DNA of 33,747 nucleotides from Alphaproteobacteria bacterium (GCA_030831315.1 JAURLI010000066.1:1-33747); one strand, 5' to 3'. Shown: positions 4,879-32,913, counted from the stretch's first letter. Notes: a model not told the origin generated them from the sequence alone. Numbers and translations are program-made.

Positions 4879-4889
4879 CAATGTCTCCT

Positions 4890-7997: not shown

Positions 7998-8031
7998 AGC
8001 GTCAATGGACCGACGGTCCGCATATAGGAAC
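7977..8031 (-). promoter_or_regulatory. Three-box operator (site 2) and promoter of the bicupin 1 operon
   Basis: Read on the minus strand: box 1 GTTCC (8031-8027), TATATGC, box 2 GGACC (8019-8015), GTC, box 3 GGTCC (8011-8007), one A, TTGACG (8005-8000), a 17-base spacer and TATCGT (7982-7977). The order operator-A-TTGACG is the same as at 1219 and 33151. The leader to bicupin 1 would be about 53 bases. The GGAA of box 1 on the plus strand also lies where the EutA1 ribosome site should be, so binding and translation signals share sequence. Confidence 0.7.
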
Positions 8032-10667: not shown

Positions 10668-10691
10668 CGGGTCACAACAGGAAGGGGCGCC

Positions 10692-11681: not shown

Positions 11682-11698
11682 CGCGGCAGGAGCGCACG

Positions 11699-14354: not shown

Positions 14355-14399
14355 ACGGACGGGGCCTGTCACACCCCACCGCCGTGCAGTGCCCTGCCA

Positions 14400-15344
14400 T
14401 CACCCCACCAGTTCGCGTGTTTCCGCCGCGAACAGATCTTCGACAGGCACGGGCGCCGGGATGATGCGCTGCGTCACGGCATGCCCCATCAGCGTCTCAA
14501 GCGTCTTGAGGTTCGGCGCGATGCCATAGGGCAGCGGATCGGCCATGATGTCGAGCGCGGCAAGGTGAACGCGGTCGGCGGCGGTCGGCGCGCCGACCCG
14601 ACCCGCCCTGAGGTCATCGACATAAAGCCGCTTCGACGCGGCGAACGCCTCGAACAGCGCTGCGCCAAGGCCGGGGTTGGCGGCCAGAACGTCGTCGCGC
14701 ACCACGACAAGATGGTTGATCGGGTATAGTCCGCGGGTCTTCAGCGCGGCGACCCCGGCCGCGAAGGCATCGGGGATGATCGGCGCGACGCCCGGCGCCT
14801 CGACCGTGGCACCGACGATGCCCGCCAGCCGGCCCGCTGCGATCTCCTCCCCCACCTCCGTTCCCTCGGGGAGGTTCCGGACATTCGGCGGGTTCACGAA
14901 ACTTGCCACATGTTCGTCGCCCGTTGGCGCCCAGGAAACACGCGACAGGTCGACGCCATGTTCGTCCTGCAGGATCGACCGGGCCCAGACGCCGGTCGTG
15001 ACCGTGTAACCGCGGTTCACCGCCACCCGACGCCCTTCCAGATCCTTCGGGCGGGTCAGGCCGAGCCCGGTGTTCCAGGACATTGCGCCATGATGGAAAT
15101 CGCGCACGAGAAAGATCGGCAGCGCGGTGAAGGCAACCCCATGCGCGCGCGCGGTGATATAGGTGGTCAGGGCCATTTCGCAGATGTCATAGGCCAATTC
15201 GCGGACCATTCGGCGAAAGCCCTTCACCAGCACTGGCACCTCCTCGAATTCGAGCGGCGCGCCGGGCACACGGATGGTGCCATCCTTCAGCGCGCGGTTG
15301 TTGCCCTGCGTCCGTGTCACGATGCGGAAGGCGTGGTCTGTCAT
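14400..15344 (-). CDS. Second Pht5-like / binding-protein-fold protein
   Basis: A 314-residue protein of the same fold as the decarboxylase at 11699: opening FRIVTRTQGNNRALKDG, then CEMALTTYITARAHG, ALPIFLVRDFHHGAMSWN, RRVAVNRGYTVTTGVWARS and LYPINHLVVVRDDVL. There is no signal peptide, so it is cytoplasmic and not a transporter receptor. Similarity to the first copy is limited, so it may act on a different acid or be a divergent decarboxylase. I chose ATG 15344 because AAGGAAG precedes it; ATG 15371 lies inside the end of the upstream gene. It is the second gene of a two-gene unit that faces the hydrolase gene. Confidence 0.72.
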   Translation of the reverse strand: MTDHAFRIVTRTQGNNRALKDGTIRVPGAPLEFEEVPVLVKGFRRMVRELAYDICEMALTTYITARAHGVAFTALPIFLVRDFHHGAMSWNTGLGLTRPKDLEGRRVAVNRGYTVTTGVWARSILQDEHGVDLSRVSWAPTGDEHVASFVNPPNVRNLPEGTEVGEEIAAGRLAGIVGATVEAPGVAPIIPDAFAAGVAALKTRGLYPINHLVVVRDDVLAANPGLGAALFEAFAASKRLYVDDLRAGRVGAPTAADRVHLAALDIMADPLPYGIAPNLKTLETLMGHAVTQRIIPAPVPVEDLFAAETRELVG

Positions 15345-15361
15345 GGGGCTTCCTTTCAGGG

Positions 15362-15652
15362 TCAGCAGCAATCGCTGCCATCGTCGATGTAAAGCGAAAG
15401 CAGATAGGCAGGCGGCAGGTCTTCTTTCGCGACCTCGGCGGCCGGCCGGTAGACCGCCCAGCGGATTGCCCGGCCGGCGGCATCGGGGAACCGCGCCACG
15501 GTGACGCGGGGCGGATAACCCGGCAAGCGAACCGCTTCCTCCCGCACCAGAACGACTGTCTCGGGGCCAAGACCATAGGCCCCGCGAACGGCGGATTCGA
15601 TGCGCTCAAGATGCGTCAACGTGGCCTTGTCCGGCCCCGATCGGAGGAACAT
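15362..15652 (-). CDS. Small unknown protein ending in Cys-Cys
   Basis: A 96-residue protein I do not recognise. It has a mixed alpha/beta composition (VVLVREEAVRLPGYPPRVTV, then RAIRWAVYRP) and ends in the acidic tail YIDDGSDCC. The terminal vicinal cysteines next to Asp could bind a soft metal. ATG 15652 is preferred because GAGAAGG precedes it by five bases. An in-frame TTG at 15709 would add 19 residues and lie only 11 bases from the operator at 15721. It is 17 bases upstream of the Pht5-like gene and probably co-transcribed with it. Confidence 0.65.
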   Translation of the reverse strand: MFLRSGPDKATLTHLERIESAVRGAYGLGPETVVLVREEAVRLPGYPPRVTVARFPDAAGRAIRWAVYRPAAEVAKEDLPPAYLLSLYIDDGSDCC

Positions 15653-15720
15653 TGCCGCCTTCTCCGAAAGGAAGATCGGGCATTCGGAACCCCGGCCAAG
15701 CAGGCCCAATTATCCCAATC

Positions 15721-15770
15721 GTTCCTCTATGTGGAACTTTGTTCTTGCTTCGATACTGCCGTTTTACTAA
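15721..15770 (+). promoter_or_regulatory. Three-box operator (site 3) and promoter of the dehydrogenase-CobW-ligK-ligJ operon
   Basis: Box 1 GTTCC 15721-15725, TCTATGT, box 2 GGAAC 15733-15737, TTT, box 3 GTTCT 15741-15745. A -35 TTCTTG (15742-15747) overlaps box 3, and a 17-base spacer leads to TACTAA (15765-15770). Boxes 1 and 2 form a perfect palindrome. The stretch GTTCTTGCTT recurs exactly in site 4. The operator lies between divergent genes, so it could also influence the small gene starting at 15652. The leader to ATG 15803 is about 26 bases. Confidence 0.7.
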
Positions 15771-15802
15771 CCGGTGGTCAATCCGCAAGTGGAGCTTTCA
15801 CG

Positions 15803-16906
15803 ATGCCCGAAACAGTTCTCGCCGCTGTCAGAACCGGCCCGCACCGCACGGAGTTTCGCGAATTTCCGATGCCGGACATCCCCGACGAAGGCGCGCTGCT
15901 GAAAGTGGAAGTGGCCGGCATCTGCGGGACCGACGTCAAGTTCTACGCGAAGCCGCCCTTTGCGGAACCGGTCATCATGGGCCACGAAAACATCGGCGTC
16001 ATCGCCAAGGCCGGGGCCACATTCAAGAAGCGCCGTGGCCTCAAGGAAGGCGACCGGGTCTTTGTTGAGCATTACGTCGGCTGCATGAACTGTGACCACT
16101 GCCATCGCGGCGATTATCGGCTGTGCATGGCGACAGACTGGCGCAAGAACCCGGACGGGCTGCGGTTCGGCTACACGCCGATCACCAAGGCACCCCACCT
16201 GTGGGGCGGCTTCGCGCAATACATGTTCCTGCCCTGGAACTCGATCATCCACCGTGTGCCTGACGGTCTATCCGCCGAACTTGCCGGCGTCGTGACGCCG
16301 ATGGCCAATGGCATTCAATGGGCGTTGTTCGATTGCGGCGTCGGTTACGACAGCCGCGTTCTGGTCCAGGGCCCAGGACAGCAGGGGCTGAGCCAGGTGG
16401 TGGCCTGCAAGCAGGCAGGGGCGTCGCTGATCATCGTCACCGGCACGTCGAAAGACCTCAAGCGGATGGAGGTCGCAAAGGCGCTGGGAGCGGATTACGT
16501 CATCAACGTGGAAACCGACGATCCGGTCGCCCGCATCGCGGAAATCACCGGTGGGGAAGGTGTGGACGTCGCACTGGATTGCACGGCGGGCGCGGGCACG
16601 GCGCCGACGTTGCTGGGGATCGAAGCCCTGAAGCGCAAGGGCGGCACGCTTCTGATCCAGGGCGAGGCTGGCGATTTCCCGAACTTCCCGATGGCGAAGG
16701 TGGCGAACAAGTACATCACCATCAAGGCTGCCCGCGGTCACAATTACCAATCCTGCGAACTGGCGCTGAAGCAGCTCAATTCCACGCGCTTTCCACTCGA
16801 CCTGATCACAACGCACAGGTTTGGGCTGAAGGACACCGACGCGGCGATAAAAGCCGTGGGCGGAAGCGGCGAGGTGATCCACGTATCGCTGATGCCGTGG
16901 GACTGA
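15803..16906 (+). CDS. Zinc-dependent alcohol dehydrogenase (MDR family)
   Basis: A 367-residue medium-chain dehydrogenase. The catalytic zinc site begins at GICGTDVKF with GHEN further on. The structural zinc loop is GCMNCDHCHRGDYRLC. The cofactor motif is GPGQQG. A loop of about 15 residues after the structural zinc site (WRKNPDGLRFGYTP) is typical of several aromatic- and diol-type subfamilies. It would oxidise an alcohol or reduce an aldehyde formed in the pathway, possibly taking the place of a LigC-type semialdehyde dehydrogenase, which is absent here; this is inference. First gene of the operon that includes CobW, LigK and LigJ homologues. Confidence 0.88.
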   Translation: MPETVLAAVRTGPHRTEFREFPMPDIPDEGALLKVEVAGICGTDVKFYAKPPFAEPVIMGHENIGVIAKAGATFKKRRGLKEGDRVFVEHYVGCMNCDHCHRGDYRLCMATDWRKNPDGLRFGYTPITKAPHLWGGFAQYMFLPWNSIIHRVPDGLSAELAGVVTPMANGIQWALFDCGVGYDSRVLVQGPGQQGLSQVVACKQAGASLIIVTGTSKDLKRMEVAKALGADYVINVETDDPVARIAEITGGEGVDVALDCTAGAGTAPTLLGIEALKRKGGTLLIQGEAGDFPNFPMAKVANKYITIKAARGHNYQSCELALKQLNSTRFPLDLITTHRFGLKDTDAAIKAVGGSGEVIHVSLMPWD

Positions 16907-16915
16907 GGCTGTACG

Positions 16916-17938
16916 ATGCCTGACCAGGCTGGACCGGATACGGACGATCGGATCCCGGTCACCGTCCTGACCGGGTGGCTCGGGGCAGGAAAGACGACCG
17001 TTCTGAACCACCTGCTGGCCACGGCCGATGGCCAGCGCCTGGCGGTGATCGTGAACGAATTCGGCGATATAGGCATTGACGGCACGCTGATCGATGCCGG
17101 CCCCTTGGACCTGATCGAGCTCAATTCCGGCTGCCTGTGCTGCGTGGTGCGGGGCGATCTGATCCGCAGCCTCAAGGCGCTTGCGGCCCGCGACGGTTCA
17201 CGTCCGGATGCGGTGGTGATCGAAACGACTGGTGTCGCGCATCCAGCCCCCGTGCTTCAGACATTTCTGGCCGATCAGGTTTTGGCCGGACATTTCCGGC
17301 TCGACGCCGTGGTGACCGTCGCCGATGCGGTGCATTTGCCGGCAACCGTTGCATTGGAACCCGATGCGGCCGACCAGTTGGTCTTGGCAGATGTCGTCGT
17401 GCTGAACAAGCTTGCCGACGCCACCGACGGGGGCACCGCTGCGGAAATCTGCGTGGCAGCGCATGCGCCCTTTGCCACGCTGCTGAAGGTCGATCGCGGT
17501 CGGGTGCCCGCGGCGGCGCTTCTGGGGCGCCATGCCTTCGATGCGGCCACGCTCGCAACGCGACTGGCCGATCTTTCGCCCCGGACGCCCGGCCCCGACG
17601 CAGCTGGCCACCAGCACCACCGCAACGATGGCCCAGCCGCGCACGCGCTGACGGTCGAGGGCCCATTCGATCCCGTTCTTCTGGCCGACTGGCTTGATCA
17701 TCTGCTTGAGGCACAGGGCGACACGATCCTGCGCATCAAGGGCATTCTTCCGGTAGCAGGCGAAGGCATGATCGTCCTGCAGTCCGTCCACCGGATGACG
17801 GAAACCGCCCCCGCCCCGGCGGGCGCCCTGGCCCAAGACGCGCCCGGTCGCATCGTTCTAATCGGCCGCGGGATCGAACCGCTTGCCGTGGCCCGGGATC
17901 TTGCCGCCTGCCGCGGCCCGAAAAACGGAGTAATCTGA
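16916..17938 (+). CDS. CobW/COG0523-type metal-chaperone GTPase
   Basis: A 340-residue G3E GTPase: Walker A GWLGAGKT (20-27), the metal-binding CxCC motif (C73-L-C75-C76), ETTG switch and LNKLAD base-recognition motif around 163. A short His-bearing linker (GHQHH, about 228) precedes the C-terminal CobW domain, which includes ILRIKGIL. Family members deliver Zn, Co, Ni or Fe to specific target proteins. Here it sits between a zinc dehydrogenase and LigK (TGATG overlap) in a catabolic operon, so its client is probably a pathway metalloenzyme, such as the cupins or the LigJ hydratase. No zinc-starvation (Zur) signature is visible upstream. Confidence 0.9.
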   Translation: MPDQAGPDTDDRIPVTVLTGWLGAGKTTVLNHLLATADGQRLAVIVNEFGDIGIDGTLIDAGPLDLIELNSGCLCCVVRGDLIRSLKALAARDGSRPDAVVIETTGVAHPAPVLQTFLADQVLAGHFRLDAVVTVADAVHLPATVALEPDAADQLVLADVVVLNKLADATDGGTAAEICVAAHAPFATLLKVDRGRVPAAALLGRHAFDAATLATRLADLSPRTPGPDAAGHQHHRNDGPAAHALTVEGPFDPVLLADWLDHLLEAQGDTILRIKGILPVAGEGMIVLQSVHRMTETAPAPAGALAQDAPGRIVLIGRGIEPLAVARDLAACRGPKNGVI

Positions 17939-18633
17939 TGCCGACAGTCGTCACCGATATCGCACGTGCCGATCCGACAGCGACCGAGGCCCTTGGCCGG
18001 TTCGGCGTGGCCACCGTCCACGAAGCTATGGGCCGTGTCGGCCTGATGGCGCCAAGGCTGCGCCCGATCTGGCGTGGCGCGCGCGTGTCGGGAACCGCCG
18101 TTACCGCCCTTTGCCCGCCCGGCGACAACTGGATGATCCATGTGGCCGCCGAACAGTGCCAGCCCGGCGACATCCTAGTGGTCGCGCCTGTCTCCGCGTC
18201 AGACTCCGGGTATTTCGGCGACCTGCTGGGCACACTGCTGGCGACGCGGGGTGTTCGCGCGCTGATCATCGACGCAGGTTGCCGCGATGTCGCCGAACTG
18301 GCCGCGCAGGGCTTTCCGGTCTGGTCGAAATGCGTTTCGGCCCACGGAACGGTCAAGGAAACGCTGGGCGATGTGAACCTGCCACTGTCCTGTGGCGATC
18401 AGATCGTGAACCCCGGCGACGTCATCGTGGCCGATGACGACGGCGTCGTCGTGGTGCCACGTGCCAGCGCAGCCCACGTGGCCGAAGCCGCCGCAGCGCG
18501 CGAGGCGCGTGAAGCCATGATCCGCGAACGCTATGGCGCAGGGGAACTTGGGCTCGACATGAACAACATGCGCCCAAAACTGGCCGAGAAGGGTCTGCGC
18601 TACGTGCGTCAGGCCGATCTGCGGCAGGACTGA
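17938..18633 (+). CDS. ligK: 4-carboxy-4-hydroxy-2-oxoadipate aldolase-type protein (RraA/HMG aldolase fold)
   Basis: A 231-residue protein of the RraA-like class II pyruvate aldolase family. Conserved features are ATVHEAMG near residue 25, the GDLLGTLLATRG loop, DAGCRDVAEL with the Arg-Asp pair R116-D117, and the end-barrel segment PGDVIVADDDGVVVVP. In the protocatechuate 4,5-cleavage pathway this enzyme splits 4-carboxy-4-hydroxy-2-oxoadipate to pyruvate and oxaloacetate using a divalent metal. The neighbouring LigJ homologue makes exactly that substrate, which supports the assignment over a plain RraA or HMG aldolase. Its start overlaps the CobW stop. Confidence 0.85.
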   Translation: MPTVVTDIARADPTATEALGRFGVATVHEAMGRVGLMAPRLRPIWRGARVSGTAVTALCPPGDNWMIHVAAEQCQPGDILVVAPVSASDSGYFGDLLGTLLATRGVRALIIDAGCRDVAELAAQGFPVWSKCVSAHGTVKETLGDVNLPLSCGDQIVNPGDVIVADDDGVVVVPRASAAHVAEAAAAREAREAMIRERYGAGELGLDMNNMRPKLAEKGLRYVRQADLRQD

Positions 18634-18651
18634 CCGGGAAGGAAACGGACG

Positions 18652-19674
18652 ATGATCATCGACTGCCACGGCCATTACACGACGGCGCCACAGCAACTTC
18701 AGGATTTTCGCGATGCGCAGATCGCGCATTTCAAGGACCCCTCGGCCCCGCCGCCGAACCTTGCCGCGATTTCGGATGACCAGATCCGGGAATCGATCGA
18801 GCAGAACCAGCTGAAGGCGCTGCGCGATCGCGGCGCAGACATGACGATCTTTTCCCCCAAGGCCTCGGCCATGGCGCATCACATCGGGGACGAGGCTGTT
18901 TCGAAACGCTGGACCCGGATAAATAACGACCTGATCCATCGCGTGACAACGTTGTTTCCCGACCATTTCATCGGCGTCTGTCAGTTGCCGCAGTCGGTGG
19001 GCGTTCCGGTCAGCAACTCGATCGAAGAACTGGAACGCTGCGTTCTCGAACTGGGCTTTGTCGGCTGCAACCTGAACCCCGATCCGTCCGGCGGCATGTG
19101 GACCGGCCGCCCCCTGACAGACCGCAGCTGGTATCCGTTCTTCGAGAAGATGGTGGAACTGGACGTGCCGGCCATGATCCACGTTTCGGGATCGTGCAAC
19201 GACAACTTCCACGCCACGGGTGCGCATTACATCAATGCCGACACGACAGCCTTCATGCAGTTCATCCAGGGTGACCTTTTCCGCGACTTCCCCGATCTGC
19301 GCTTGATCATCCCGCACGGCGGCGGTGCGGTGCCCTATCACTGGGGGCGCTACCGGGGCCTTGCCGACATGCTGTCGAAACCGCCCCTGACCGAGCATGT
19401 CATGCGCAACGTCTATTTCGATACCTGCGTCTACCATCAGGCCGGAATCGACCTTCTGTTCCGAGTGATCGACATCGACAATATCCTGTTCGCATCGGAG
19501 ATGTTCGGCGCGGTCAAAGGCGTAGACCCGGAAACGGGGCATACTTTCGATGACACGAAGCGGTATGTGGACGCACTCGACCTATCGCCGGCCGATCGCT
19601 CCAAGGTGTTCGAAGGCAACGCCCGGCGCGTCTATCCGCGGCTTGATGCGGCCTTGAAGGCACGCGGCCTCTAG
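18652..19674 (+). CDS. ligJ: 4-oxalomesaconate hydratase-type amidohydrolase
   Basis: A 340-residue amidohydrolase-superfamily protein, the usual length of LigJ. It begins MIIDCHGHY (metal ligands H6, H8). It also has IHVSGS (H177), PHGGGAVPY (H222) and LFASEMFGA (E283), which line up with the metal and active-site residues of LigJ hydratases, and the family segment GCNLNPDPSGG. LigJ adds water to 4-oxalomesaconate, giving the LigK substrate. Related ACMSD-type decarboxylases are the main alternative, but the start motif, length and neighbour favour LigJ. It is the last gene of the operon and is followed by a strong hairpin. Confidence 0.85.
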   Translation: MIIDCHGHYTTAPQQLQDFRDAQIAHFKDPSAPPPNLAAISDDQIRESIEQNQLKALRDRGADMTIFSPKASAMAHHIGDEAVSKRWTRINNDLIHRVTTLFPDHFIGVCQLPQSVGVPVSNSIEELERCVLELGFVGCNLNPDPSGGMWTGRPLTDRSWYPFFEKMVELDVPAMIHVSGSCNDNFHATGAHYINADTTAFMQFIQGDLFRDFPDLRLIIPHGGGAVPYHWGRYRGLADMLSKPPLTEHVMRNVYFDTCVYHQAGIDLLFRVIDIDNILFASEMFGAVKGVDPETGHTFDDTKRYVDALDLSPADRSKVFEGNARRVYPRLDAALKARGL

Positions 19675-22081: not shown

Positions 22082-22684
22082 TCAGACGCGGGCGCGCAGG
22101 TAACCGCGCACGAGGTCCGGTGTCAGCATCATCCCCGGCTTGTATTCCGGCGCATCCTCGATCTGTTCAAGATCGTTCAGGCCGCATTGCTTGAAGATGC
22201 GGTTGATGACCGAAATCAGCCGCAGCGGCCGGTCTGGATCCGCGTTGAAATGCTGGTGGATCGTATTCGGCGGCACATAGATCACGTCGCCCGCCTCGTA
22301 GTCGAAGCGCTGCACCTGGTCCTGCGGCTTCCAGAAATAGGTATCAGTGATTTCCACGTCGCAATCCTGGTGCAGATCGTAGCCCCTGCCCTCAAGCACA
22401 TAAAGGCATTCTTCGGCCAGATGCCGGTGCTTGCCCGACCGGGAACCGGGGGGCACGATCTGCATGTAGGCGTCGACCGTTTCCATCCGCGTGTTCATGT
22501 CCTCGTTGATCAGGTGCTTCAGAAGACCCTGACGCGACATATCCCACGGCATCTCTTCGGGCCGCACGATCTTCTTGCGCTGCGCGTTGCGGTCCGGGGC
22601 GGCCTCGGCGTCATCGAGAAGCTTCTGATAAAGGTCGCGGTTTTCGGTCCCGTCGATCCAGACCTTCGTTTCACCCCAGGCCAT
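22082..22684 (-). CDS. Cupin B2, single-domain cupin with complete metal motif
   Basis: A 200-residue cupin, the only one of the six proteins with an intact classical motif 1: H86-R-H88-LAE-E92, plus H143 in IHQHFN. It can therefore hold Fe(II), Mn or another metal in a 3-His/1-Glu site. It is the paralogue of cupin B1 (1909), where the first His is Ser. GLLKHLINED and the GDVIYVPP turn are shared. The start ATG 22684 has AAGGGGG upstream, and the gene follows cupin A2 by two bases, so the A2-B2 pair is coupled, as is A1-B1. Confidence 0.82.
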   Translation of the reverse strand: MAWGETKVWIDGTENRDLYQKLLDDAEAAPDRNAQRKKIVRPEEMPWDMSRQGLLKHLINEDMNTRMETVDAYMQIVPPGSRSGKHRHLAEECLYVLEGRGYDLHQDCDVEITDTYFWKPQDQVQRFDYEAGDVIYVPPNTIHQHFNADPDRPLRLISVINRIFKQCGLNDLEQIEDAPEYKPGMMLTPDLVRGYLRARV

Positions 22685-22686
22685 GA

Positions 22687-23271
22687 TCAGTATCCCCCTT
22701 CGGGATGATTGAAATCTTCCTCTTCTTCACGAACGACATAGCCTTCGCCGCCGGGGGCAGCCGTTGTCTGCCGGGGTTCCACCGTCTTCTGGAAAAGCAT
22801 GTTCATGAAAACGAACATCGGCTTGGTCTTGAGCACGAGCGCCCGCGCCGGCTTCGTATTAGACGCGTTGAAATGCTGGTGCACGCAGTTGTTGTGCACG
22901 ATCGCCACGTCGCCAGCCTTCCAGTCGTAGCGGATGCCGTCGTGGATTTCGTAGCCTTCCCCATCGAGAATGTAGAACGCAGCCTCGTTCACGTGCCCGT
23001 GCTTCTGGCTTTTCCCGCCGGGGCCATATTCCTCCAGATGGATGTGAAAAAGTTGGCTGATGCCGTCTTTCGGCTCAACGTAGTGGCGGCTGTAGGCCTG
23101 CGGCCCATCGACGAACTTGATTTCGCTGGCCTTGCGCACACGCGGCATAGACCGCAGTCGTTCCAGTTCCCAGCCCAGGTTGTATTCGCCCTGGATCGAG
23201 CGGACGAAGATGCGATCCTTCTTGCTATGGTAGTAGCCTGCGGGCTGATCGCTGTCGGCGTTTTCGAACAT
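22687..23271 (-). CDS. Cupin A2, single-domain cupin protein
   Basis: A 194-residue cupin paralogous to cupin A1. Motif 1 is KHGHVNEAAF (H91, H93; E96 one residue earlier than the normal Glu position), motif 2 VHQHFN (H131). Conserved stretches with A1 include DRIFVRSIQGEY, the DWKAGD turn and KPMFVFMNMLFQK. ATG 23271 is selected because AGGAGG stands seven bases upstream. It is first in the A2-B2-permease operon behind operator site 4. I infer an A-B heteromer equivalent to the two domains of the bicupins; which subunit carries the catalytic metal is open. Confidence 0.82.
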   Translation of the reverse strand: MFENADSDQPAGYYHSKKDRIFVRSIQGEYNLGWELERLRSMPRVRKASEIKFVDGPQAYSRHYVEPKDGISQLFHIHLEEYGPGGKSQKHGHVNEAAFYILDGEGYEIHDGIRYDWKAGDVAIVHNNCVHQHFNASNTKPARALVLKTKPMFVFMNMLFQKTVEPRQTTAAPGGEGYVVREEEEDFNHPEGGY

Positions 23272-23318
23272 TTCGCTTCCTCCTGTCGGCTCTGACGGCT
23301 TACCGCAATTTTCAAGCA

Positions 23319-23343
23319 AGAACAATATTCTGCTATACGGAAC
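23319..23343 (-). promoter_or_regulatory. Three-box operator (site 4), cupin A2 operon
   Basis: Read on the minus strand: box 1 GTTCC (23343-23339), GTATAGC, box 2 AGAAT (23331-23327), ATT, box 3 GTTCT (23323-23319), then TGCTT. Box 2 is the weakest match (AGAAT for GGAAC), but GTTCTTGCTT is identical to site 3. I see no convincing -10 at the expected distance. Cupin A2 starts 48 bases downstream. Confidence 0.55.
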
Positions 23344-23843: not shown

Positions 23844-23865
23844 CGACCGGCGTTCAACCCGGTCG
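23844..23865. terminator. Hairpin between convergent ferredoxin and tctA genes
   Basis: CGACCGG (23844-23850) and CCGGTCG (23859-23865) pair over an eight-base loop that contains the tctA stop codon (23854-23856). It is ten bases after the ferredoxin stop. There is no T-run, so support is moderate. Confidence 0.4.
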
Positions 23866-25356
23866 GCGGCCCGCCATGACACGGCGAAGGGTCGGCAGCA
23901 GGAAGGTGATGACGATCGCCGCGATCAGGATCACCGATACCGGCCGATCCAGCATGAAGCCCAGGATATTGCCGTCCGAGATCAGGTTCACCTGATGCAA
24001 CGACCGTTCGGCGATGTCGCCCATGACCAGCGCGATGACAAGCGTCAGGCGCGGGTAGTCGAACCGGATCATCAGATAGCCGATGACACCCATCACGACT
24101 GTCAGGGCCACGTCCGCCATCCGCCCCTCCAATACATAGACGCCGATCAGCGACACCGCGATCACGACGGGGACAACAACGCCGACGTCGATCTTCGTGA
24201 TCAGCACAAGCCAGCGCGCCAGAAGAAGCCCGATGATTGAGGCACCGACAGCCGATGCCGTCAACGCAACGATCAGGCCGTAGACCTCGCGTTCGCGATG
24301 CATCAGGATACCTGGCCCCGGATCCATCCCGTGGAGCACGAGGATCGCCAGGAAAAGGGCCGTTTCCGCGCTGCCGGGAATGCCGAAGGCCACCGTCGGG
24401 ATCAGGGACCCCCCGTCCTTTGCGTTGTTCGCCGACTCCGGGGCGATGACGCCCTTGATGTTTCCCTTGCCGTAGCTGTCGGGGTCGCGGTCGGTCTGCA
24501 CCACCGAGGAATAGGACAAAAAGGCAGCGACCGTTCCGCCCAGACCGGGGATCGCCCCGATGATGGTACCGATCGCGGAGCCACGCAGCAGAACCGGCCA
24601 ATGCCGGAACACCGCCAGCACCCCCTCGCCCACCCCGGTTATCGCAAATTTTTCATCCTTTCCGGATTGGGCCACCGATCCGCCCTTGAGGGCAAGTTCC
24701 ATCATCTGGCTGATCGCGAACATGCCGGTCAGCGTTGGAACCAGCGGGATGCCATCCCAAAGGTAATTTATGCCCCCCGCATACCGGATGTCGCCCGAGA
24801 TGGAATCGAAACCCACGAAGGCAAACATCAACCCGATGCCCCCCGCAATCAGCCCGCGCAACAACTTGCCGCGAACGGAAACGGCGATGGCGGCAAGGCC
24901 AAGCACGGTCAGCAGGAAGAACTCCGCCGGTCCGAAGGAGAGGACCACGTCGCGCGCAATGGGAATGAAAAGCAGAAGGGTAAAAAGCCCGATCAGCCCG
25001 CCCAGCGCCGATGCCGCGGCGGACGCACCGATGGCCAGCCCCGCCTTGCCTTGCCGTGCCAGTGGGTAGCCATCGAATGTGGTCGCGGCATTGGGCGCAG
25101 TGCCCGGCGTATTCAGCAGGATGGCCGTTACCGACCCTCCAAAGGACGTGGCGCCCATCGCCCCGCCGGCAAGATACATCGCCTCGATCGGCTCCATGCT
25201 GTAGGTCGCCGGAATGATGAGGGCCAGCGCGGTGGTCCCGCCAAGGCCGGGTATAACGCCAAAGGACAGGCCCAGCAGGATGCCGGCGGCGAGGTATAGC
25301 AAGTTCCCGCCAAGCGCGAGCTCGACAAAGGCATTTGCCAGCGCATCGAATCCCAT
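23854..25356 (-). CDS. tctA: TTT transporter large membrane subunit TctA (copy 2)
   Basis: A 500-residue polytopic protein with both internal TctA repeats: GVIPGLGGTTALALIIPATYSMEP and LLNTPGTAPN in the first, AIPGLGGTVAAFLSYSSV, YGKGNIKGVIAPESANNAKDGG and AFGIPGSAETALFL in the second. TctA with TctB forms the sodium- or proton-coupled channel for carboxylates captured by TctC. It is the last gene of the long operon; 72 bases with a GC-rich hairpin separate it from tctC. The ribosome site AAGGAG precedes ATG 25356. Confidence 0.95.
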   Translation of the reverse strand: MGFDALANAFVELALGGNLLYLAAGILLGLSFGVIPGLGGTTALALIIPATYSMEPIEAMYLAGGAMGATSFGGSVTAILLNTPGTAPNAATTFDGYPLARQGKAGLAIGASAAASALGGLIGLFTLLLFIPIARDVVLSFGPAEFFLLTVLGLAAIAVSVRGKLLRGLIAGGIGLMFAFVGFDSISGDIRYAGGINYLWDGIPLVPTLTGMFAISQMMELALKGGSVAQSGKDEKFAITGVGEGVLAVFRHWPVLLRGSAIGTIIGAIPGLGGTVAAFLSYSSVVQTDRDPDSYGKGNIKGVIAPESANNAKDGGSLIPTVAFGIPGSAETALFLAILVLHGMDPGPGILMHREREVYGLIVALTASAVGASIIGLLLARWLVLITKIDVGVVVPVVIAVSLIGVYVLEGRMADVALTVVMGVIGYLMIRFDYPRLTLVIALVMGDIAERSLHQVNLISDGNILGFMLDRPVSVILIAAIVITFLLPTLRRVMAGRRPG

Positions 25357-25428: not shown

Positions 25429-26379
25429 TCACTGCGACAGCAGGTCCTTGTACTGAAGATAGAAGGTCGACAGGTCGTCCATCATCGCCCTAGTCGCCGC
25501 TGCATCCTTGAAGTTCAGCGTGGTTCCGCTTGTCTGCGCCCAGTCGGTCACGGCAGCTGCCTCGGTCGCGGCACGGAACGCATCCGACAGCTTGGCGACA
25601 ACGGCCGGGTCCATGCCGGGCGGGCCGCCAACAACGCGGTTGATGGTGAACTTCGCCAGTTCCGGATGCCCGATGGCGGCCGCCGTTTCGACGCCCTCCA
25701 GCAGCGTTTCCTCGCTCAGCGTAAATATCATCCGCAAATCGCCGGAGGCGACGTATTTGGCCAGCGATCCGATCGGCTTCAGCGTTGCGTCGACCTCACC
25801 ACGCATAACGGCGATCATCGTGTCGTTCGACCCGCTGTAGCCGGTCACGTTGGTGATCGGACAGTCGAGGATGTCGAAGGAAATCACGGCCGTGATACTG
25901 GACGTTGAATCGCCCCCCGTATCCGAAAGCTTGATCGAGCGGCCCAGCGCACAAAGGTCCGCGACCGAGTTGATCGGGCTGTCGGACTTGACCGCGATCC
26001 CGTATTTCTCCTCTGCAAGGTTCGCGATCCAGGTGATTTCGCCCAGGGAGAAGCCGATGTCCCGGCTGGTCGCTTCGGACACGGTCAGGCCGGGGATATT
26101 GAAGATGCCGATGGTATAGCCATCGGGTTCCGCGCGATGGACGGTTTGCCCGCCCCGTGTCCCAGACGCGCCTGGGATGTTTTCGGGAACCACGGTCGTG
26201 CCGAGGATGGATTCGAGCGTCGGCGCGAAACTGCGCACGATCGTGTCGAAGCCGCCACCCGGGCCGTAGGGGATCACGAAGGTGATCTTGTCATCGGCAG
26301 GGTATTCCGCTGCCGCAATCGTGGCTGAGGCGACGAGCGCGACAAGCGCCGCGGCCCCTTTCTTCAACATGGTTTTCAT
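25429..26379 (-). CDS. tctC: TTT transporter periplasmic binding protein TctC (copy 2)
   Basis: A 316-residue binding protein of the Bug/TctC family. The N-terminus is a Sec signal peptide with probable cleavage after about residue 24 (ATIAAA-E). Family motifs are ITFVIPYGPGGGFD, NIPGASGTRGG near residue 68 and ADGY-like EPDGYTIGIFN. It differs from copy 1 in sequence and in export signal, so the two probably bind different carboxylates. It has AGGGAGGAA upstream of ATG 26379 and follows tctB by 32 bases. Confidence 0.93.
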   Translation of the reverse strand: MKTMLKKGAAALVALVASATIAAAEYPADDKITFVIPYGPGGGFDTIVRSFAPTLESILGTTVVPENIPGASGTRGGQTVHRAEPDGYTIGIFNIPGLTVSEATSRDIGFSLGEITWIANLAEEKYGIAVKSDSPINSVADLCALGRSIKLSDTGGDSTSSITAVISFDILDCPITNVTGYSGSNDTMIAVMRGEVDATLKPIGSLAKYVASGDLRMIFTLSEETLLEGVETAAAIGHPELAKFTINRVVGGPPGMDPAVVAKLSDAFRAATEAAAVTDWAQTSGTTLNFKDAAATRAMMDDLSTFYLQYKDLLSQ

Positions 26380-26411: not shown

Positions 26412-26939
26412 CTACCACCGGGCGAAGCCGCCTTTCGAAAACAGAAGGCCGCGGTAAAGCTCGTAGTCGAGCAGCCATTCGAACACCGCGATTTCGAAGA
26501 CGAAGAGGCAGGTTGCGATGGCGGCGGCCTCGAACAGGCCGCGTCGCGCCCGGAACCGTATGAAGGCAAGGCAGAAAAGCGGCAGCGTGACAAGGATGCC
26601 GAAGATCGCGACCCCGGCGAAGACACCGAGGAGCCAGAGCAACAGCCCCATCTCCCTGCCGAAGGGCGGCACATCGGGCATTTCCCGCCGGTGGAACGAC
26701 GTGCCCCAGACATCGGCCACCACCCGAAGCCCCGGAAGGTCCAGACGGCTCCAAAGATCGATAACCCCCAGAATAACAAGGCTCGCCGCGACGATGCGGG
26801 GAAATTGCCGCCCCTCGGGCGCATAGGCCCCGGCGAACACCCACCCCAAGACGCCGATCGCAATGACGACAACCGCCGGCCAGACCGATACGACCGAAGG
26901 GGCCGGGTGATCGCGGGTGTCGTCGGTCGGTCCGCTCAT
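26412..26939 (-). CDS. tctB: TTT transporter small membrane subunit TctB (copy 2)
   Basis: A 175-residue membrane protein with about four helices, an N-terminal helix with the EGRQFPRIVA segment (family: A..FP...), and the TctB-like C-terminus LFEAAAIATCLFVFEIAVFEWLL then YELYRGLLFSKGGFARW. It is the partner of TctA copy 2. The start overlaps the EutA2 stop (ATGA), so a catabolic reactivase-type gene and a transporter gene are translationally coupled. Confidence 0.88.
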   Translation of the reverse strand: MSGPTDDTRDHPAPSVVSVWPAVVVIAIGVLGWVFAGAYAPEGRQFPRIVAASLVILGVIDLWSRLDLPGLRVVADVWGTSFHRREMPDVPPFGREMGLLLWLLGVFAGVAIFGILVTLPLFCLAFIRFRARRGLFEAAAIATCLFVFEIAVFEWLLDYELYRGLLFSKGGFARW

Positions 26940-28498
26940 GCCTTGACCCTTCCCGCGCCCAGTCCGGCGCCCTGTCCCGCCACCTGTCCGGCGGCCCGCC
27001 GCGGCGCGGCCTCACCGGGAAACAGAAGCGATTTGACCACCACCGGAACCGCGCCGGTCGCGCGGATGACGGCGCCGATGTCGACGAAGTCGAAGTCCTT
27101 CAGCCGCACGCCGTCTATGGCGACGATCGGCGTATCGACCAGCCCGTTTTCGCGGCAGTGGATGCCCAGCAACCCGCCGATATCGCCGTCACAGACAACG
27201 ACAAACGGATGATCGTTCACAATCAGGTCGGCCAGACCTGCGACCAGACCGCGTGCCAACCCATCAAGCCGCGCATAGGTGGCCGACCCCTGCCAGCCGA
27301 TCGCGACAGCCACGGGCCGGTCTGCCGCAGCCAGGTCGGCGTGCTCCAGCGACCGCTTGATCTGTCTGGCCACATGAACCGGGTCGATCACATCCCCCGA
27401 CAAGCCCAGGGCGGGGCGAATGGCCGCGAGGTTGCGCAGGGGCAACGTGTCCAGCGGATCAAGGAACACGGTCGAACCGCTGACCTGCACGCAGTGTTGC
27501 GACACACCCGTGACCGTTGCGCGAATTCCAGCCCCATGGGGAACGAAGTCGATGTCGGCGGCCATCATCATGTCCCGCAGCGCGGCGGCCAGCGGGCGGC
27601 CCAGATCGCCAAAATCGGGAACATCGGCCCCATAGATGTATTCCGCGACACCGCCGGAAAATACGACACCATCGAACTGCAACCCTTGCGGCAGCCCGGG
27701 CAGGCGCAGCAAGTCCGCCGGTTCGCGCCCTGCCAGCGCGCGACCGATCCGCGCGGCCATCGCCAGGCCCAGCCGCGCCCGATCGCGCCGGGGCAGCACG
27801 TCGCCCAGGATAAGGCGAATGCCGGCATCTTCGGCGGTGCGGGCGCCGAAATCCTCAATCCGCACGATGCGATCCTGCGCATCGGTCACGACAAGCCGCG
27901 CACCGGCCTCAACCGCGGTCAGGGCAATGACGTCGCCACTACGGCAGACTGCGATCTTGGTGGTGCCGCCCCCGACATCGATGTTTACGACGGTGTGCCC
28001 GCGTTCCGACGCGGCAACCGCACCCGAACCGTGCGCGGCCATCAGCGCTTCGAGCCGGTCGCCGGCGCTCAACGATACGAACCGGCCTGCTTCGGCAGCA
28101 AAGATCGTGCCAATCGCGCGCGCATTGCGCCGCCGCACCGCGACGCCTGTCAGGATCAGCGCGCCGGTGTCGATGGCATCGCGGGGGATGCCGGCACGGG
28201 CGAATTCCGCGTCGAAGAATGCACCCAGCGCCACGGCGTCGATATCGCCATCCCTGCGATAGGGCGTCAGCAGGATGTCGGAGGAATGCAGGGAGTCCCG
28301 TGCGGCCACAACATAGCGCGTATCGAGCCGTTCCAGCACAATTTCAGACAGGAGCATGTGCGAAGTGGCCGACCCGATATCGATCCCGACGCTGGTCAGC
28401 CGGATTTCGTCTTCCTCAAGCAGCGAACGATCCGCGCCGGAAAAGAAGACGCCTCCGCCGATCGGCGCCGGATCGACCCTGTCGGGTGCCCCCGGCAT
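26936..28498 (-). CDS. eutA: EutA-type reactivase ATPase (EutA2)
   Basis: A 520-residue EutA-family ASKHA ATPase, paralogous to EutA1 (8041). Motifs: SVGIDIGSATSH (36-47), NIDVGGGTTK (172-181), SGGVAEY (281-287), and the C-terminal DGVRLKDFDFVDIGAVI that parallels EutA1. It lacks the His-rich ends of EutA1; its tail is Gly/Ala-rich instead (GQGAGLGAGR). The gene begins inside the stop of bicupin 2 (TGATG) and ends overlapping tctB. With EutA1 beside bicupin 1, both EutA copies are physically tied to bicupins. No ethanolamine ammonia-lyase is present, so a different client is likely. Confidence 0.85.
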   Translation of the reverse strand: MPGAPDRVDPAPIGGGVFFSGADRSLLEEDEIRLTSVGIDIGSATSHMLLSEIVLERLDTRYVVAARDSLHSSDILLTPYRRDGDIDAVALGAFFDAEFARAGIPRDAIDTGALILTGVAVRRRNARAIGTIFAAEAGRFVSLSAGDRLEALMAAHGSGAVAASERGHTVVNIDVGGGTTKIAVCRSGDVIALTAVEAGARLVVTDAQDRIVRIEDFGARTAEDAGIRLILGDVLPRRDRARLGLAMAARIGRALAGREPADLLRLPGLPQGLQFDGVVFSGGVAEYIYGADVPDFGDLGRPLAAALRDMMMAADIDFVPHGAGIRATVTGVSQHCVQVSGSTVFLDPLDTLPLRNLAAIRPALGLSGDVIDPVHVARQIKRSLEHADLAAADRPVAVAIGWQGSATYARLDGLARGLVAGLADLIVNDHPFVVVCDGDIGGLLGIHCRENGLVDTPIVAIDGVRLKDFDFVDIGAVIRATGAVPVVVKSLLFPGEAAPRRAAGQVAGQGAGLGAGRVKA

Positions 28499-29709
28499 CA
28501 GCCGTCGCTTTCAGGCCGAATGTAGCGCGACGGCTCCATCCGGCTTTTGCCGCCGTTGCGGGCGATCAGATCCTCGAATTCCTCGCGCAGGTGCGGATCC
28601 TCCATCCAGTAGGGGATCGCGGTGCCGCCTTCGGTAACATCCATGGCCGTGTAGTCGGTCTGCTTTTCACCCGGCCGCAACCCGGTCACGAGGCTGGGGT
28701 GGTTCGGCCCGAACCACGCCGACAGTCGGAAGGGTTCTGCCGAAGTATTGAAATGCTGGTGGTACCATCGCGCGCCACCCGGCGCGGCGCTGACCATGCC
28801 GAAGGGGCCGTAGTCGACGCGCTGCACCTTCTCGGTATGCCCATCGCGCCAGGGGTTTACCCCACATTCCTCTGGCCAGGTATAGGTATAGCCCGCGCCC
28901 TTCACGCAGATCAGCACGGCAGCAGACGTGTGGGCATGTGCCTTGGAATAGCGCCCCGTCTCATGCTGGCCGATCCAGAGATAGAACTTGTTGCCGGTCA
29001 TGAACGGCTCGACCCGCCGGTAGCCGGGCGACCGGCGATTGTCGAGCGGCAGATCGCAATTGACGATGTCTGGCACGAGGTTGGTACGCCGCATCGCAAG
29101 GCCGCGGATCGGGTCGGGTTCGATGTCTTCCGATGGCCGGTAGAAATCCTGCGCGCCTGAATAACGTTCGCTGAAAGAATAGGGCGTGTTGAAGATGAAA
29201 TCGGTGCTGCCGACAAGGTTCATCAAGTTCGGCGCGGTGGTTCCGGCGATCAACAGCGCGGGCTTGTTCGTCGCGTTCACGATGCGATGCATCGCGTTCA
29301 CCGGGATCGAGAACAGAGACCCTTGCTGCCATTCGAACACATGGCGCGCCCCGCACTCCTCCAGCCAGACCTCCGTCGTGCCGCGGCCTTCCGCCACAAG
29401 AAAGATTTCTTCGTAAAGGTGTTTCTCGGGGTTGAGCGCGCCACCGGGCGGCACCTCGACGACATAGCAGCCCCATTTGCCTTCGGTCCCGTGCAGCTGG
29501 ATGTATTGGCCGCGCCCGCCCATGCGCGGCCAGTCTTTCAAGTCCAGATCCTTGACGCTGCGCAAGCCGACACCCCGAAACACCGGCACGCCGTCATCTT
29601 CCATGAAGCGGTCATAGTCCGACATGGGCTGGCCGAACTTGCCGTGGCCGGCGCGCTTTTCGGCCGTCGGCTCGTGCCAGTGAACGCGGCCGGACATATC
29701 GTCATGCAT
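28498..29709 (-). CDS. Bicupin 2, two-domain cupin protein
   Basis: A 403-residue two-cupin protein related to bicupin 1. Domain 1 has EKHLYEE (E95 in place of the first His, H97, E101) and MHRIVN. Domain 2 has AHAHTSAAV (H258, H260, no Glu) and WYHQHFN, giving the same three-His plan as bicupin 1. The N-terminal extension of about 40 residues is polar with His and Asp. The start ATG 29709 has AAGGAA six bases upstream. It sits between TTT copy 1 and EutA2 in the long operon. A gentisate-dioxygenase-like ring cleavage is the best-supported guess, with bicupin 1 and 2 acting on different intermediates. Confidence 0.85.
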   Translation of the reverse strand: MHDDMSGRVHWHEPTAEKRAGHGKFGQPMSDYDRFMEDDGVPVFRGVGLRSVKDLDLKDWPRMGGRGQYIQLHGTEGKWGCYVVEVPPGGALNPEKHLYEEIFLVAEGRGTTEVWLEECGARHVFEWQQGSLFSIPVNAMHRIVNATNKPALLIAGTTAPNLMNLVGSTDFIFNTPYSFSERYSGAQDFYRPSEDIEPDPIRGLAMRRTNLVPDIVNCDLPLDNRRSPGYRRVEPFMTGNKFYLWIGQHETGRYSKAHAHTSAAVLICVKGAGYTYTWPEECGVNPWRDGHTEKVQRVDYGPFGMVSAAPGGARWYHQHFNTSAEPFRLSAWFGPNHPSLVTGLRPGEKQTDYTAMDVTEGGTAIPYWMEDPHLREEFEDLIARNGGKSRMEPSRYIRPESDG

Positions 29710-29733: not shown

Positions 29734-30249
29734 TCAGAACACGCGGTAGCCTGCGAGATAGCGGAACAGCAGCCCGCGATAGAGTTCGACGTTGAAGCCC
29801 TGCTCGAACAGCAGGAACAGGGCGGCCACCGTCCCCGCCGTGACGAGCAGTGCCAAAACCCAGCGTTCCCGCGCGAACCAGCGCATCAGGGCCAGCATGA
29901 AGATCGCCACGCCGATGTAATGCCCGAGCGTCCAGATCAGCAGGCCGACCACGACGAAGGTTGCCAAAAGCCAGCCGAGCTTGCCGAACACGGCATTGCG
30001 GCCGCGCATCGCCTCTCCGATATGGTAGCGCACTTCGGCCAGCGCGCCGGCCTTTCGAAGCTGGAACGCCTGCACGCCGATCAGCGCAATCAGGGGCACC
30101 ATGATGACGAAGGGCGTCCGCGACGAGACGAGCTTGTAGCTGAACGCCTCGACAAAAGCGGCGAGGACAAGGGCACCGACGAACGCCAGAAACAGGATTT
30201 CAAGCGCGTGGATGCCGGTTTTCTGGCGGCCATCGTTGTGGTTCGACAC
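29734..30249 (-). CDS. tctB: TTT transporter small membrane subunit TctB (copy 1)
   Basis: A 171-residue membrane protein with about four helices, similar in plan to copy 2, ending FNVELYRGLLFRYLAGYRVF, where copy 2 has YELYRGLLFSKGG. The start is GTG 30249 with GGAGGG upstream, three bases after the tctA stop. Gene order here is tctC-tctA-tctB, while copy 2 is tctB-tctC-tctA, so the two sets did not arise by simple tandem duplication. Confidence 0.88.
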   Translation of the reverse strand: MSNHNDGRQKTGIHALEILFLAFVGALVLAAFVEAFSYKLVSSRTPFVIMVPLIALIGVQAFQLRKAGALAEVRYHIGEAMRGRNAVFGKLGWLLATFVVVGLLIWTLGHYIGVAIFMLALMRWFARERWVLALLVTAGTVAALFLLFEQGFNVELYRGLLFRYLAGYRVF

Positions 30250-30252
30250 GGC

Positions 30253-31752
30253 TCAGGCCCTCCGGCGATCGCGTATGATGGACAGGATGTTGAAAAGAAG
30301 GAAGGCCAGCGTGAACAGGCCCAAGGCCGCGGGGATCGGCTGCGTGAAGAAGAACGGGCCATCCAGAAGCAGCGCGAGGTAGAGGTTCTTTTCCACCGCG
30401 AAACCCAGCACAAACCCGATCAGCAGCGCCGCCCGCGAATAGTTCAGCACCTTCATCAGGTAGCCGACGATCCCAAAGACGATGGCAACGCCGATGTCGA
30501 ACATCGCCCGGTCCGTCGCGTAGGCGCCGGTCAGGATGACGGCCATCAGCACCGGCACGATAACCTCTGCGCGCATCGCGGTGGCCCGCGACATCGGGTT
30601 CACAAGGAACATGCCGACCAGCGTGCCAATCAGGTTGCCGATGATGATCGTGAAGATGATCACGAACACGATGTCGAGATGCTGGTTCAGCATCCGCGGC
30701 CCCGTTTCGAGACCGACGATGAACAACCCGGACAACAGGATCGCCATGGACGAACTGCCTGGAATGCCGAAGGCGATGGTGGAAGCAACAGCCCCACCCT
30801 CCACTGCGTCGTTGGCGGACTCCGGTCCGATCACCCCCTCGACATTGCCCTTTCCGAAGGTTTCCTTGTTCTTCGATGTCTGTTTCGCATGGCCGTAGGC
30901 GATGAAAGAAGCTGCGGCACTGCCCAGGCCCGGCACGATCCCGATCGCGGTGCCGATGGCGCTGCATCGCATGACCAGCCACCAGTTCTTGAAGGCCAGG
31001 CCAACTCCCCGGAAAATCTGTCGTTGGGTTTCCGCCGCCGACAAAGGCTTGGTGACGCCGCGCGCCAGCGATCCGCCGGTGCCCCACAGATCGAACATTT
31101 CTGCCACCGCGAACAGCCCGAGTATGACCGGCACAAGTGAAAGGCCGTCGGACAACGACAGTAGCCCCATGGTGAAGCGGTCTGTATTGGTGACGTTGTC
31201 GAGCCCGATCATCGCCAAAAGCAGGCCGCACAGGGCGGCGATCAAGCTTCGGATCAGATCTTCTTTTCCGAGCACCGCAACGAATGTGAGGGCAAGGAAG
31301 GCCATCATCACCACTTCCGGTGGGCCGAAGAACAGCACGACCTCGCGCAGCACGGGGATCAGCGCCGCAAGCACCAAGGCTCCAAAGGTCGCCCCAAGGA
31401 AGCACGAAGCCATGGCGGCGCCGACCGCCACGCCCGCCTCGCCCCGGTCGCGCATCGGCGGCCCGTCAAGCAAGGTCGCCGCATTCTGCCCGGTGCCGGG
31501 CGTGGAAAACAGGATCGCGGTCAAGCCCCCGCCCTGGGCGACGGTCGCATGCGCGCCCATCAGGAACGCAATGCCAGAGGCGGGTTCCATCGTGTAAAGG
31601 AAGGTGACCGCCATCGCCATCGCGAAGTGTCCGCTCAGCCCCGGAATGATACCGACCACAAGGCCGAAGATGGCGCCGATGCTCAGATAAGGAAGCACCT
31701 CAAGGCTGATCGACTGAAGAAAGCCGCTCGTCAGCCCCTCAAAAATGGTCAT
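30253..31752 (-). CDS. tctA: TTT transporter large membrane subunit TctA (copy 1)
   Basis: A 499-residue protein with the two TctA repeats: GIIPGLSGHFAMAMAV and FSTPGTGQNA in the first, GIVPGLGSAAASFIAYG, FGKGNVEGVIGPESANDAVEGG and AFGIPGSSSMAILL in the second. The first PGL motif reads PGLSGHF in place of PGLGGTT, a difference from copy 2 in the proposed substrate path. It is 123 bases after tctC, with a strong hairpin between them. Confidence 0.95.
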   Translation of the reverse strand: MTIFEGLTSGFLQSISLEVLPYLSIGAIFGLVVGIIPGLSGHFAMAMAVTFLYTMEPASGIAFLMGAHATVAQGGGLTAILFSTPGTGQNAATLLDGPPMRDRGEAGVAVGAAMASCFLGATFGALVLAALIPVLREVVLFFGPPEVVMMAFLALTFVAVLGKEDLIRSLIAALCGLLLAMIGLDNVTNTDRFTMGLLSLSDGLSLVPVILGLFAVAEMFDLWGTGGSLARGVTKPLSAAETQRQIFRGVGLAFKNWWLVMRCSAIGTAIGIVPGLGSAAASFIAYGHAKQTSKNKETFGKGNVEGVIGPESANDAVEGGAVASTIAFGIPGSSSMAILLSGLFIVGLETGPRMLNQHLDIVFVIIFTIIIGNLIGTLVGMFLVNPMSRATAMRAEVIVPVLMAVILTGAYATDRAMFDIGVAIVFGIVGYLMKVLNYSRAALLIGFVLGFAVEKNLYLALLLDGPFFFTQPIPAALGLFTLAFLLFNILSIIRDRRRA

Positions 31753-31875: not shown

Positions 31876-32913
31876 TCAGATTTCACCGCGGATGGCCGCG
31901 ACCAGCTTGGCCCGCACATCGTCGGTAAGTTCGGTCGATGCCCGCGCGATGTTGCGCATCGTGGGCCCGTCCACATAGGACAGTTCGCGGCCTGCATCCG
32001 TCATCATCTTGACGAAGTCGGGGTCCGCCATCGCCTTTGCGAAGGCGTCTTGCAGGAAGGCCAGCCGGTCTTCCGGCACGCCTGGCGGAACCGCAACCGG
32101 GCGGCCGACGGCATTCAGCGCATCCCAGGCGGCCATGATCGGCGCGATTTCCGCAGCGTTCGGCATCTTTTCGGCGTATTCGAAGATGCTGGGCACATCG
32201 AGTGCAAGCGGCGAACGGACGCGATCGCTTTGCACGACGATCACGTGCTCTCCGTCCTGGACCCCCTGCAGCGCAGAACCAAGCGAGCCCCACATCGCCT
32301 CGACATCGCCACGCAGCATCGCCTGCCTTACGTCGGACGAGTTGTCGAAGCCGTGGACCACCTTTTGCCCGACACCAAGCGCAGGCCCAGTGATCACGGC
32401 ATCCACATAGGTCGAACCGCCCAAGCCCGTCGCGCCGACGATCACATCCCGGTCAGCGGCCATCAGATCCTCGAAGGTCTTGTAGGGCGACTGGCTGCTG
32501 ACGACGAGAACGCGGAGGTCGGCAACCATCCGCCCGAGGTAGCCGTATTCGCCGATCTTGTAGCGCACGCCCTCGATCTCGGACAGCTGGTTAGTCACCA
32601 TCGCCGAACCGTTGATGATCCCAACCGTCAGTCCGTCCGCAGGCGCGTCGAAGATCTCGTTCGCGCCCTTCATGCCGCCGGCGCCGGGCAGGTTCACGAC
32701 GTCGACCCGCGCGCCCGTGTATTTTTCGAGGTAGGGCGCGATGGCGCGGCTGTATTCGTCATAGCCGCCGCCGGGGTTGTAGGGGATGATCCACTTGATC
32801 ACGTTGTCCTTGTAGAACGACGCAGCATCCTGCGCCCGGGCGAGGCCCGCGGCGGTGATCAGGGGGGCGGCAGCAAGCGCGGCGACAACGCCCTTCAGAA
32901 AAGTCCGTCTCAT
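31876..32913 (-). CDS. tctC: TTT transporter periplasmic binding protein TctC (copy 1), probable Tat substrate
   Basis: A 345-residue Bug/TctC-type binding protein. The N-terminus MRRTFLKG fits the twin-arginine motif, followed by a hydrophobic stretch and a likely cleavage site after ARA (about residue 27). Family segments are IKWIIPYNPGGGYDEYSR and NLPGAGGMKGANEI. A Tat signal would mean export in folded form, which differs from the Sec-type copy 2. It is the first gene of the long operon behind operator site 6; ribosome site AGGGAGGAG precedes ATG 32913. Confidence 0.92.
   Translation of the reverse strand: MRRTFLKGVVAALAAAPLITAAGLARAQDAASFYKDNVIKWIIPYNPGGGYDEYSRAIAPYLEKYTGARVDVVNLPGAGGMKGANEIFDAPADGLTVGIINGSAMVTNQLSEIEGVRYKIGEYGYLGRMVADLRVLVVSSQSPYKTFEDLMAADRDVIVGATGLGGSTYVDAVITGPALGVGQKVVHGFDNSSDVRQAMLRGDVEAMWGSLGSALQGVQDGEHVIVVQSDRVRSPLALDVPSIFEYAEKMPNAAEIAPIMAAWDALNAVGRPVAVPPGVPEDRLAFLQDAFAKAMADPDFVKMMTDAGRELSYVDGPTMRNIARASTELTDDVRAKLVAAIRGEI

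Follow-up and report, generated by a model that had tools for sequence, protein, structure and literature searches.

The window analysed here, a 33,747-nucleotide stretch of DNA (Alphaproteobacteria bacterium, GCA_030831315.1 JAURLI010000066.1:1-33747), carries two EutA-family genes, each paired with a bicupin gene: EutA2 (26936-28498, minus strand; 520 aa) with bicupin 2 (28498-29709, minus strand; 403 aa), and EutA1 (8041-9837, plus strand; 598 aa, with an ATG at 8005 also possible) with bicupin 1 (6802-7917, minus strand; 371 aa). The EutA-bicupin pairing is well supported. Our favoured explanation, to which we give about even credence, is that the two pairs are paralogous copies of one module, in which a bicupin metalloenzyme is served by a dedicated EutA-family ATPase for metal loading or exchange. 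A bolder proposal, possible but distinctly tentative, is that they belong to a new class of EutA-family ASKHA ATPases for metal insertion into, or reactivation of, nickel- (or cobalt-) dependent bicupin oxygenases with a C-terminal-domain site, each genome having several paralogous pairs that co-evolve, one of them with built-in histidine buffers.

The first-pass annotation placed bicupin 2 and EutA2 in a long transporter operon with overlapping TGATG codons, and its coordinates are exact. One base is common to the bicupin-2 stop codon TGA (28500-28498) and the EutA2 start codon ATG (28498-28496) on the minus strand (CGGCTGATGCCG; 28496-28500), and the EutA2 stop overlaps by four bases with a downstream TctB-like gene (26412-26939). 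The minus-strand order is TctC-TctA-TctB, bicupin 2-EutA2, TctB-TctC-TctA, with the pair flanked by two complete tripartite (TTT) transporter sets. This core is kept in five Rhodobacterales-like loci: L063, L064 (Brevirhabdus), L065, L066 (Labrenzia), and L075. Bicupin 1 and EutA1 are indeed divergent, with starts at 7917 (minus) and 8041, or 8005 (plus).

From these two arrangements the first-pass annotation argued that the pairing is functional, and the pairing itself proves real and wider than the locus. The genome (2.70 Mb, completeness 99.2%) contains four full EutA genes, each adjoining a bicupin: the two in the window, one on contig C39 in the same order as bicupin 2-EutA2, and one on C62, where EutA follows three tandem bicupins. 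A contig scan with the EutA alignment gave 574 relatives, from which the best 80 loci, ranked by likeness to EutA2, were kept. Among 115 EutA genes (101 loci), a bicupin lies no more than 300 bases away in 72 cases, and in 63 of these it is immediately upstream with the same orientation; most of these 63 neighbours are separated by tens of bases at most, and 10 show the TGATG-type overlap, which taken alone we regard as modest evidence for pairing. The loci span Alphaproteobacteria, Betaproteobacteria, Chloroflexi, and one ‘Delta’. Across an evenly drawn sample of 289 Alphaproteobacteria, both families are confined to the same seven genomes; six of these have a full EutA and the seventh has an EutA fragment beside the bicupin at a contig end. 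The seven are not independent events, since they represent only three families, and a phylum-wide sample of 398 genomes is too sparse for further co-occurrence testing. Four genomes of that sample have a high-scoring classical EutA and no bicupin, and in a control (G455, L172) EutA is followed by EutB. A literature search of incomplete coverage found no paper linking EutA with cupins or with NikR. The genome itself shows an unusual expansion of bicupins, with about 21 paralogues in 2.7 Mb (two in the window), several as tandem runs of three.

Identity is 38% between EutA1 and EutA2 and 34% between the two bicupins, and we therefore regard both as pairs of old paralogues. Separate trees, which the first-pass annotation had put forward as a check on co-evolution, were made by a quick method and are congruent between the paralogue clades. 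The EutA tree resolves three clades: EutA1 (16 rows; Shimodaira-Hasegawa-like approximate likelihood ratio test (SH-aLRT) 100), EutA2 (88 rows; 100), and a third one of 10 rows (96). In the bicupin tree, the bicupin 1 clade has 18 rows (99) and the bicupin 2 clade 66 (100), beside a third group. Neighbouring genes mostly fall into matching clades (EutA1 with bicupin 1, EutA2 with bicupin 2, and a third pair), and the aberrant EutA of locus L116 adjoins a bicupin that is aberrant too. EutA and bicupin distances have a rank correlation of 0.85 over 69 pairs, a value reached in none of 1000 permutations (maximum 0.33); the correlation of 0.84 within EutA2-bicupin 2 is weak evidence, because linked genes share descent. 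The stronger part of the tree evidence is the clade matching of the paralogues, together with the persistence of the EutA1-bicupin 1 link across divergent (window) and tandem (L053, L084, and L117) layouts. In loci holding both EutA1 and EutA2, the bicupin nearest EutA1 is sometimes the divergent bicupin 2 (L069 and L076), with bicupin 1 further along. The EutA of L057 lies on a long branch.

Both window proteins give full-length matches to the EutA profile (PF06277; EutA2 319 bits and EutA1 351-355 bits, against a cut-off of 27 bits). The ASKHA nucleotide-binding residues (G38, D40, G42, D174, G176-T179, G282, and G283) are conserved and common to Escherichia coli EutA, the phosphate and adenosine motif residues being invariant. 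The AlphaFold2 (AF2) model of EutA2 (predicted local distance difference test score, pLDDT, 87) has an ASKHA fold, matching PPX/GppA (VIA Z 18.9, root-mean-square deviation (rmsd) 3.7, 256 aligned), FtsA (VIA Z 15.1), and the activators of 2-hydroxyacyl-CoA dehydratases (Z 14-15; Foldseek rank 1). The HgdC-type activators and the benzoyl-CoA reductase subunits share with the EutA family this fold and the use of ATP to drive activation of a partner enzyme; the EutA family differs in its probably aerobic catabolic context and in lacking an invariant cysteine for a 4Fe-4S cluster (among 53 EutA sequences, no cysteine is invariant or nearly so). A sequence search for a solved EutA structure found none. 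Partial PF06277 matches of FtsA/MreB type, covering about 50 aa at 20-32 bits, were discounted as belonging to other ASKHA proteins, and the protein called ‘EutA’ in connection with ectoine is unrelated.

Like classical EutA, the window proteins adjoin the enzyme that they are proposed to serve, but they are only about one-third identical to the E. coli protein, have a bicupin as partner, and score 273.5 bits against the cut-off of 598 bits for the NCBIfam equivalog of ethanolamine ammonia-lyase reactivase. A search of the genome for EutB (PF06751) found none, which rules out an ordinary eut operon, and EutB is likewise absent from 17 of 19 genomes of the EutA-bicupin type. The label ‘ethanolamine ammonia-lyase reactivase’ is therefore wrong here, and in Proteobacteria and Chloroflexi hundreds of proteins probably carry it in genomes lacking the lyase. 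The cupin that eut operons encode, EutQ, was considered as the partner and rejected, since in Pfam the bicupins match the Cupin_2 family instead of EutQ. A natural fusion of EutA and bicupin, suggested by L113 and other long frames, was also rejected; these are long open reading frames in GC-rich DNA without a bicupin match.

Bicupin 2 and bicupin 1 match Cupin_2 (43 and 46 bits). The bicupin fold is shared with the gentisate and salicylate 1,2-dioxygenases, which tie as the top matches to the bicupin 2 model (AF2, pLDDT 89.7; VIA Z 20.8, rmsd 3.6-4.7 over 266-270 residues). Oxalate decarboxylase (Z 19.7) and MncA (Z 19.3) follow closely. Identity to the dioxygenases is 11-14%, and on their equivalog bicupin 1 scores 18.9 bits against 442 and bicupin 2 has no match. 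The three-histidine site is conserved in the C-terminal cupin domain (H258-x-H260 and H317-x-H319 in bicupin 2): among 68 bicupins, H317 and H319 occur in all and H258/H260 in 66. The N-terminal-domain ligand positions vary in the same set (position 95 is E, Q, or V and position 141 H or Y), so that no N-terminal histidine triad is found. Gentisate and salicylate dioxygenases hold their iron in the N-terminal cupin domain, and the metal site of the bicupins is therefore apparently in the other half. We know of no EutA partner for the nickel quercetinase QueD, which resembles the bicupins as a cupin dioxygenase but differs in its 3His/1Glu site. Nickel is likely the native metal of QueD (PMC4416304).

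The first-pass annotation noted that EutA2 lacks the histidine tails of EutA1 (HEHDGDADHDHDD; HGHHHHDHDHHH), and this holds as a difference between clades. Tails rich in histidine occur at both the N- and C-termini in all 16 EutA1-clade members, with 13 to 35 tail histidines in 15 of them and 7 in L087, where the sequence end cuts the C-tail at 9 residues; no EutA outside the clade has more than 4. The tails, which in the window protein are rich in histidine and aspartate, are thus a clade trait across Alpha- and Betaproteobacteria. A second EutA is present in 15 of the 16 EutA1 loci, a count biased upward because most of these loci were found via an EutA2 match. Such tails, and the NicO and NikR neighbours described below, recall the nickel metallochaperones HypB, UreE, and SlyD, from which the present proteins differ in that only the EutA1 clade has the tails. 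The folds of HypB, UreE, and SlyD also differ from that of the EutA family.

Genes for nickel or cobalt handling lie near EutA more often than expected. In the window, a NicO-family transporter with a His-rich loop (4165-4881, minus strand; PF03824, 44 bits), a Rieske oxygenase, and bicupin 1 form one tight run with gaps of 75, 1, and 8 bases. This NicO is the only one in the genome, where we found no urease, no NiFe hydrogenase, and no CbiC (for making cobalamin). NicO/NiCoT genes also occur near EutA in L054, L098/L102, L127/L134, L129, L133, L138, and L142, NikR in L127, L133, and L134, and a NikR-like frame in L090; in L127 and L134, bicupin 2-EutA2 is directly followed by NicO and NikR. 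The NicO/NiCoT gene near EutA is the sole family member in G210, G655, G657, G658, G659, and G660, genomes that were picked for having one. Taking the rate from sixteen genomes not so picked (20 NicO/NiCoT genes in 71 Mb), 0.33 is expected in the 80 EutA-seeded loci and six independent sets are observed (Poisson about 1e-6), and this enrichment supports a metal role. Nickel is favoured where NikR is present, and cobalt is also compatible. The EutA loci L098 and L102 are almost the same and were assigned to bins of Rhodospirillaceae (RS382) and SAR202, one of which is probably contaminated.

On its lyase, EutA exchanges adenosylcobalamin (AdoCbl) for cob(II)alamin (Co(II)Cbl) (PMC9426561). We suggest that this swapping of a spent cofactor could be the template for the bicupin step, since an ATPase that opens the bicupin for its metal is the simplest transfer from it. 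The TTT transporters would import an organic or aromatic acid on which the bicupin, probably an oxygenase, would act; the ASKHA-fold EutA-family ATPase would most likely bind its own bicupin, and ATP-driven domain closure may open the bicupin so that metal can be loaded or exchanged. The metal would be nickel (or cobalt) where NicO, NiCoT, or NikR genes adjoin; the tails of the EutA1 clade may buffer it, and EutA2 would manage without them. Physical contact, ATP-driven activation, metal identity, and substrate are what we infer for the module. The tails and the nearby nickel genes lend some plausibility to a division of labour between EutA1 and EutA2, for which the first-pass annotation proposed metal handling against chaperoning. 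To our knowledge, no dedicated ATPase for a cupin oxygenase has been known before, and the EutA-like proteins would, if this is true, be the first. Loading or repair of a bicupin metal by EutA-like ATPases would add a new client class for ASKHA reactivases and point to an unrecognised use of nickel (or cobalt) in organic-acid catabolism, and the matched paralogous pairs offer a ready test of specificity.

Several observations weigh against this explanation. The first-pass annotation took frequent occurrence of either partner alone as contrary evidence, and for the bicupins this is what we see: there are 21 bicupins to 4 EutA in the genome, most bicupins have no adjacent EutA, and a 62%-identical bicupin 2 paralogue at C59:2075 has none. 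As bicupins are often alone, any dependence would be of EutA on the bicupin more than the reverse. Two bicupins of bicupin 2 type lack HxH (both His replaced) yet have an adjacent EutA (L052:8493-9719 and L057:10941-12173). Most EutA-bicupin loci have no nickel gene within 8 kb, the NicO family does not distinguish nickel from cobalt, and the congruence of the trees comes partly from the shared descent of linked genes. Finally, the third-clade EutA of G210 and G104 follows UbiD in place of a bicupin (L054:7576-10658 and L056:9109-12204), with NicO 10 bases downstream of the EutA in L054; SAR202-type loci place EutA beside an aldo-keto reductase (L100), and L113 has UbiD and an amidohydrolase near EutA. 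The client may differ in such side branches.

This variety of neighbours is what one would expect if the non-eut EutA proteins were general ATP-dependent maturation factors, serving several different enzymes that carry a cofactor or metal (bicupin, UbiD, and amidohydrolase), with the bicupin as commonest client and no specific metal. The clade-matched bicupin partners and the identical presence of the two families across the 289 genomes point instead to a bicupin-specific core, and we consider a general factor unlikely. The same neighbours would also suit a substrate-activating kinase. It would phosphorylate either the acid brought in or an intermediate, and a bicupin, UbiD, or other enzyme would act on the product, as two consecutive steps of a pathway; sugar and acetate kinases are among the proteins of ASKHA fold, and the genes sit within catabolic transporter operons. 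We hold this to be no more probable than a general factor: the whole family resembles a known reactivase and shares its conserved blocks, its partners are matched by clade, and a kinase leaves the His tails and nickel genes unexplained. It seems very unlikely that EutA1 and EutA2 still serve a B12-dependent enzyme, with NicO importing cobalt and the bicupin a mere pathway neighbour. EutA is known solely as an AdoCbl-enzyme reactivase (PMC9426561), NicO transporters carry cobalt or nickel, and the window has a CobW gene; against this stand the lack of EutB and of CbiC noted above, the different context of a true EutA beside EutB (L172), and the absence of any B12-dependent family among the scanned window genes.

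The remaining genes of the two loci are as follows, all on the minus strand unless stated. Upstream of bicupin 2, the first TTT set comprises a TctB-like gene 24 bases away (29734-30249), a TctA-like gene (30253-31752, from synteny), and TctC (31876-32913; PF03401, 61 bits). In the second set, the TctB-like small subunit that overlaps EutA2 is followed by a TctC-like solute-binding protein (25429-26379; synteny in L063, L064, L066, and L075) and TctA (23854-25356; PF01970, 419 bits). In syntenic relatives, the gene downstream of EutA has this TctB-like subunit as its best match. Two monocupins (22687-23325, Cupin_2 49 bits; 22082-22684, 51 bits) are kept, along with EamA genes, in those of the five syntenic loci long enough to show them. 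In the bicupin 1 operon, the next gene is the Rieske oxygenase, of LigXa_C type (5440-6726; PF19301 114 bits, PF00355 65 bits). Beyond NicO lies a 156-aa protein with a His-rich C-tail that starts MCG[E/D] (3684-4154); a Pfam search gave no family match, and the protein belongs to a small unnamed family with relatives in EutA1 loci only (L069:404-859, L076:1170-1580, L117:729-1226, and L142:3889-4296). At the end of the run (2555-3672), two overlapping open reading frames match different parts of an ArsP_1-like permease. On the plus strand, a catabolic run (9834-19674) holds IclR, ferredoxin reductase, NMT1-like, PanB-like, hydrolase, Zn-ADH, CobW GTPase, RraA-like, and amidohydrolase-2 genes, among which the CobW/COG0523 GTPase (16916-17938; PF02492, 163 bits) belongs to a metallochaperone family; several genes of this run recur near EutA in other loci.

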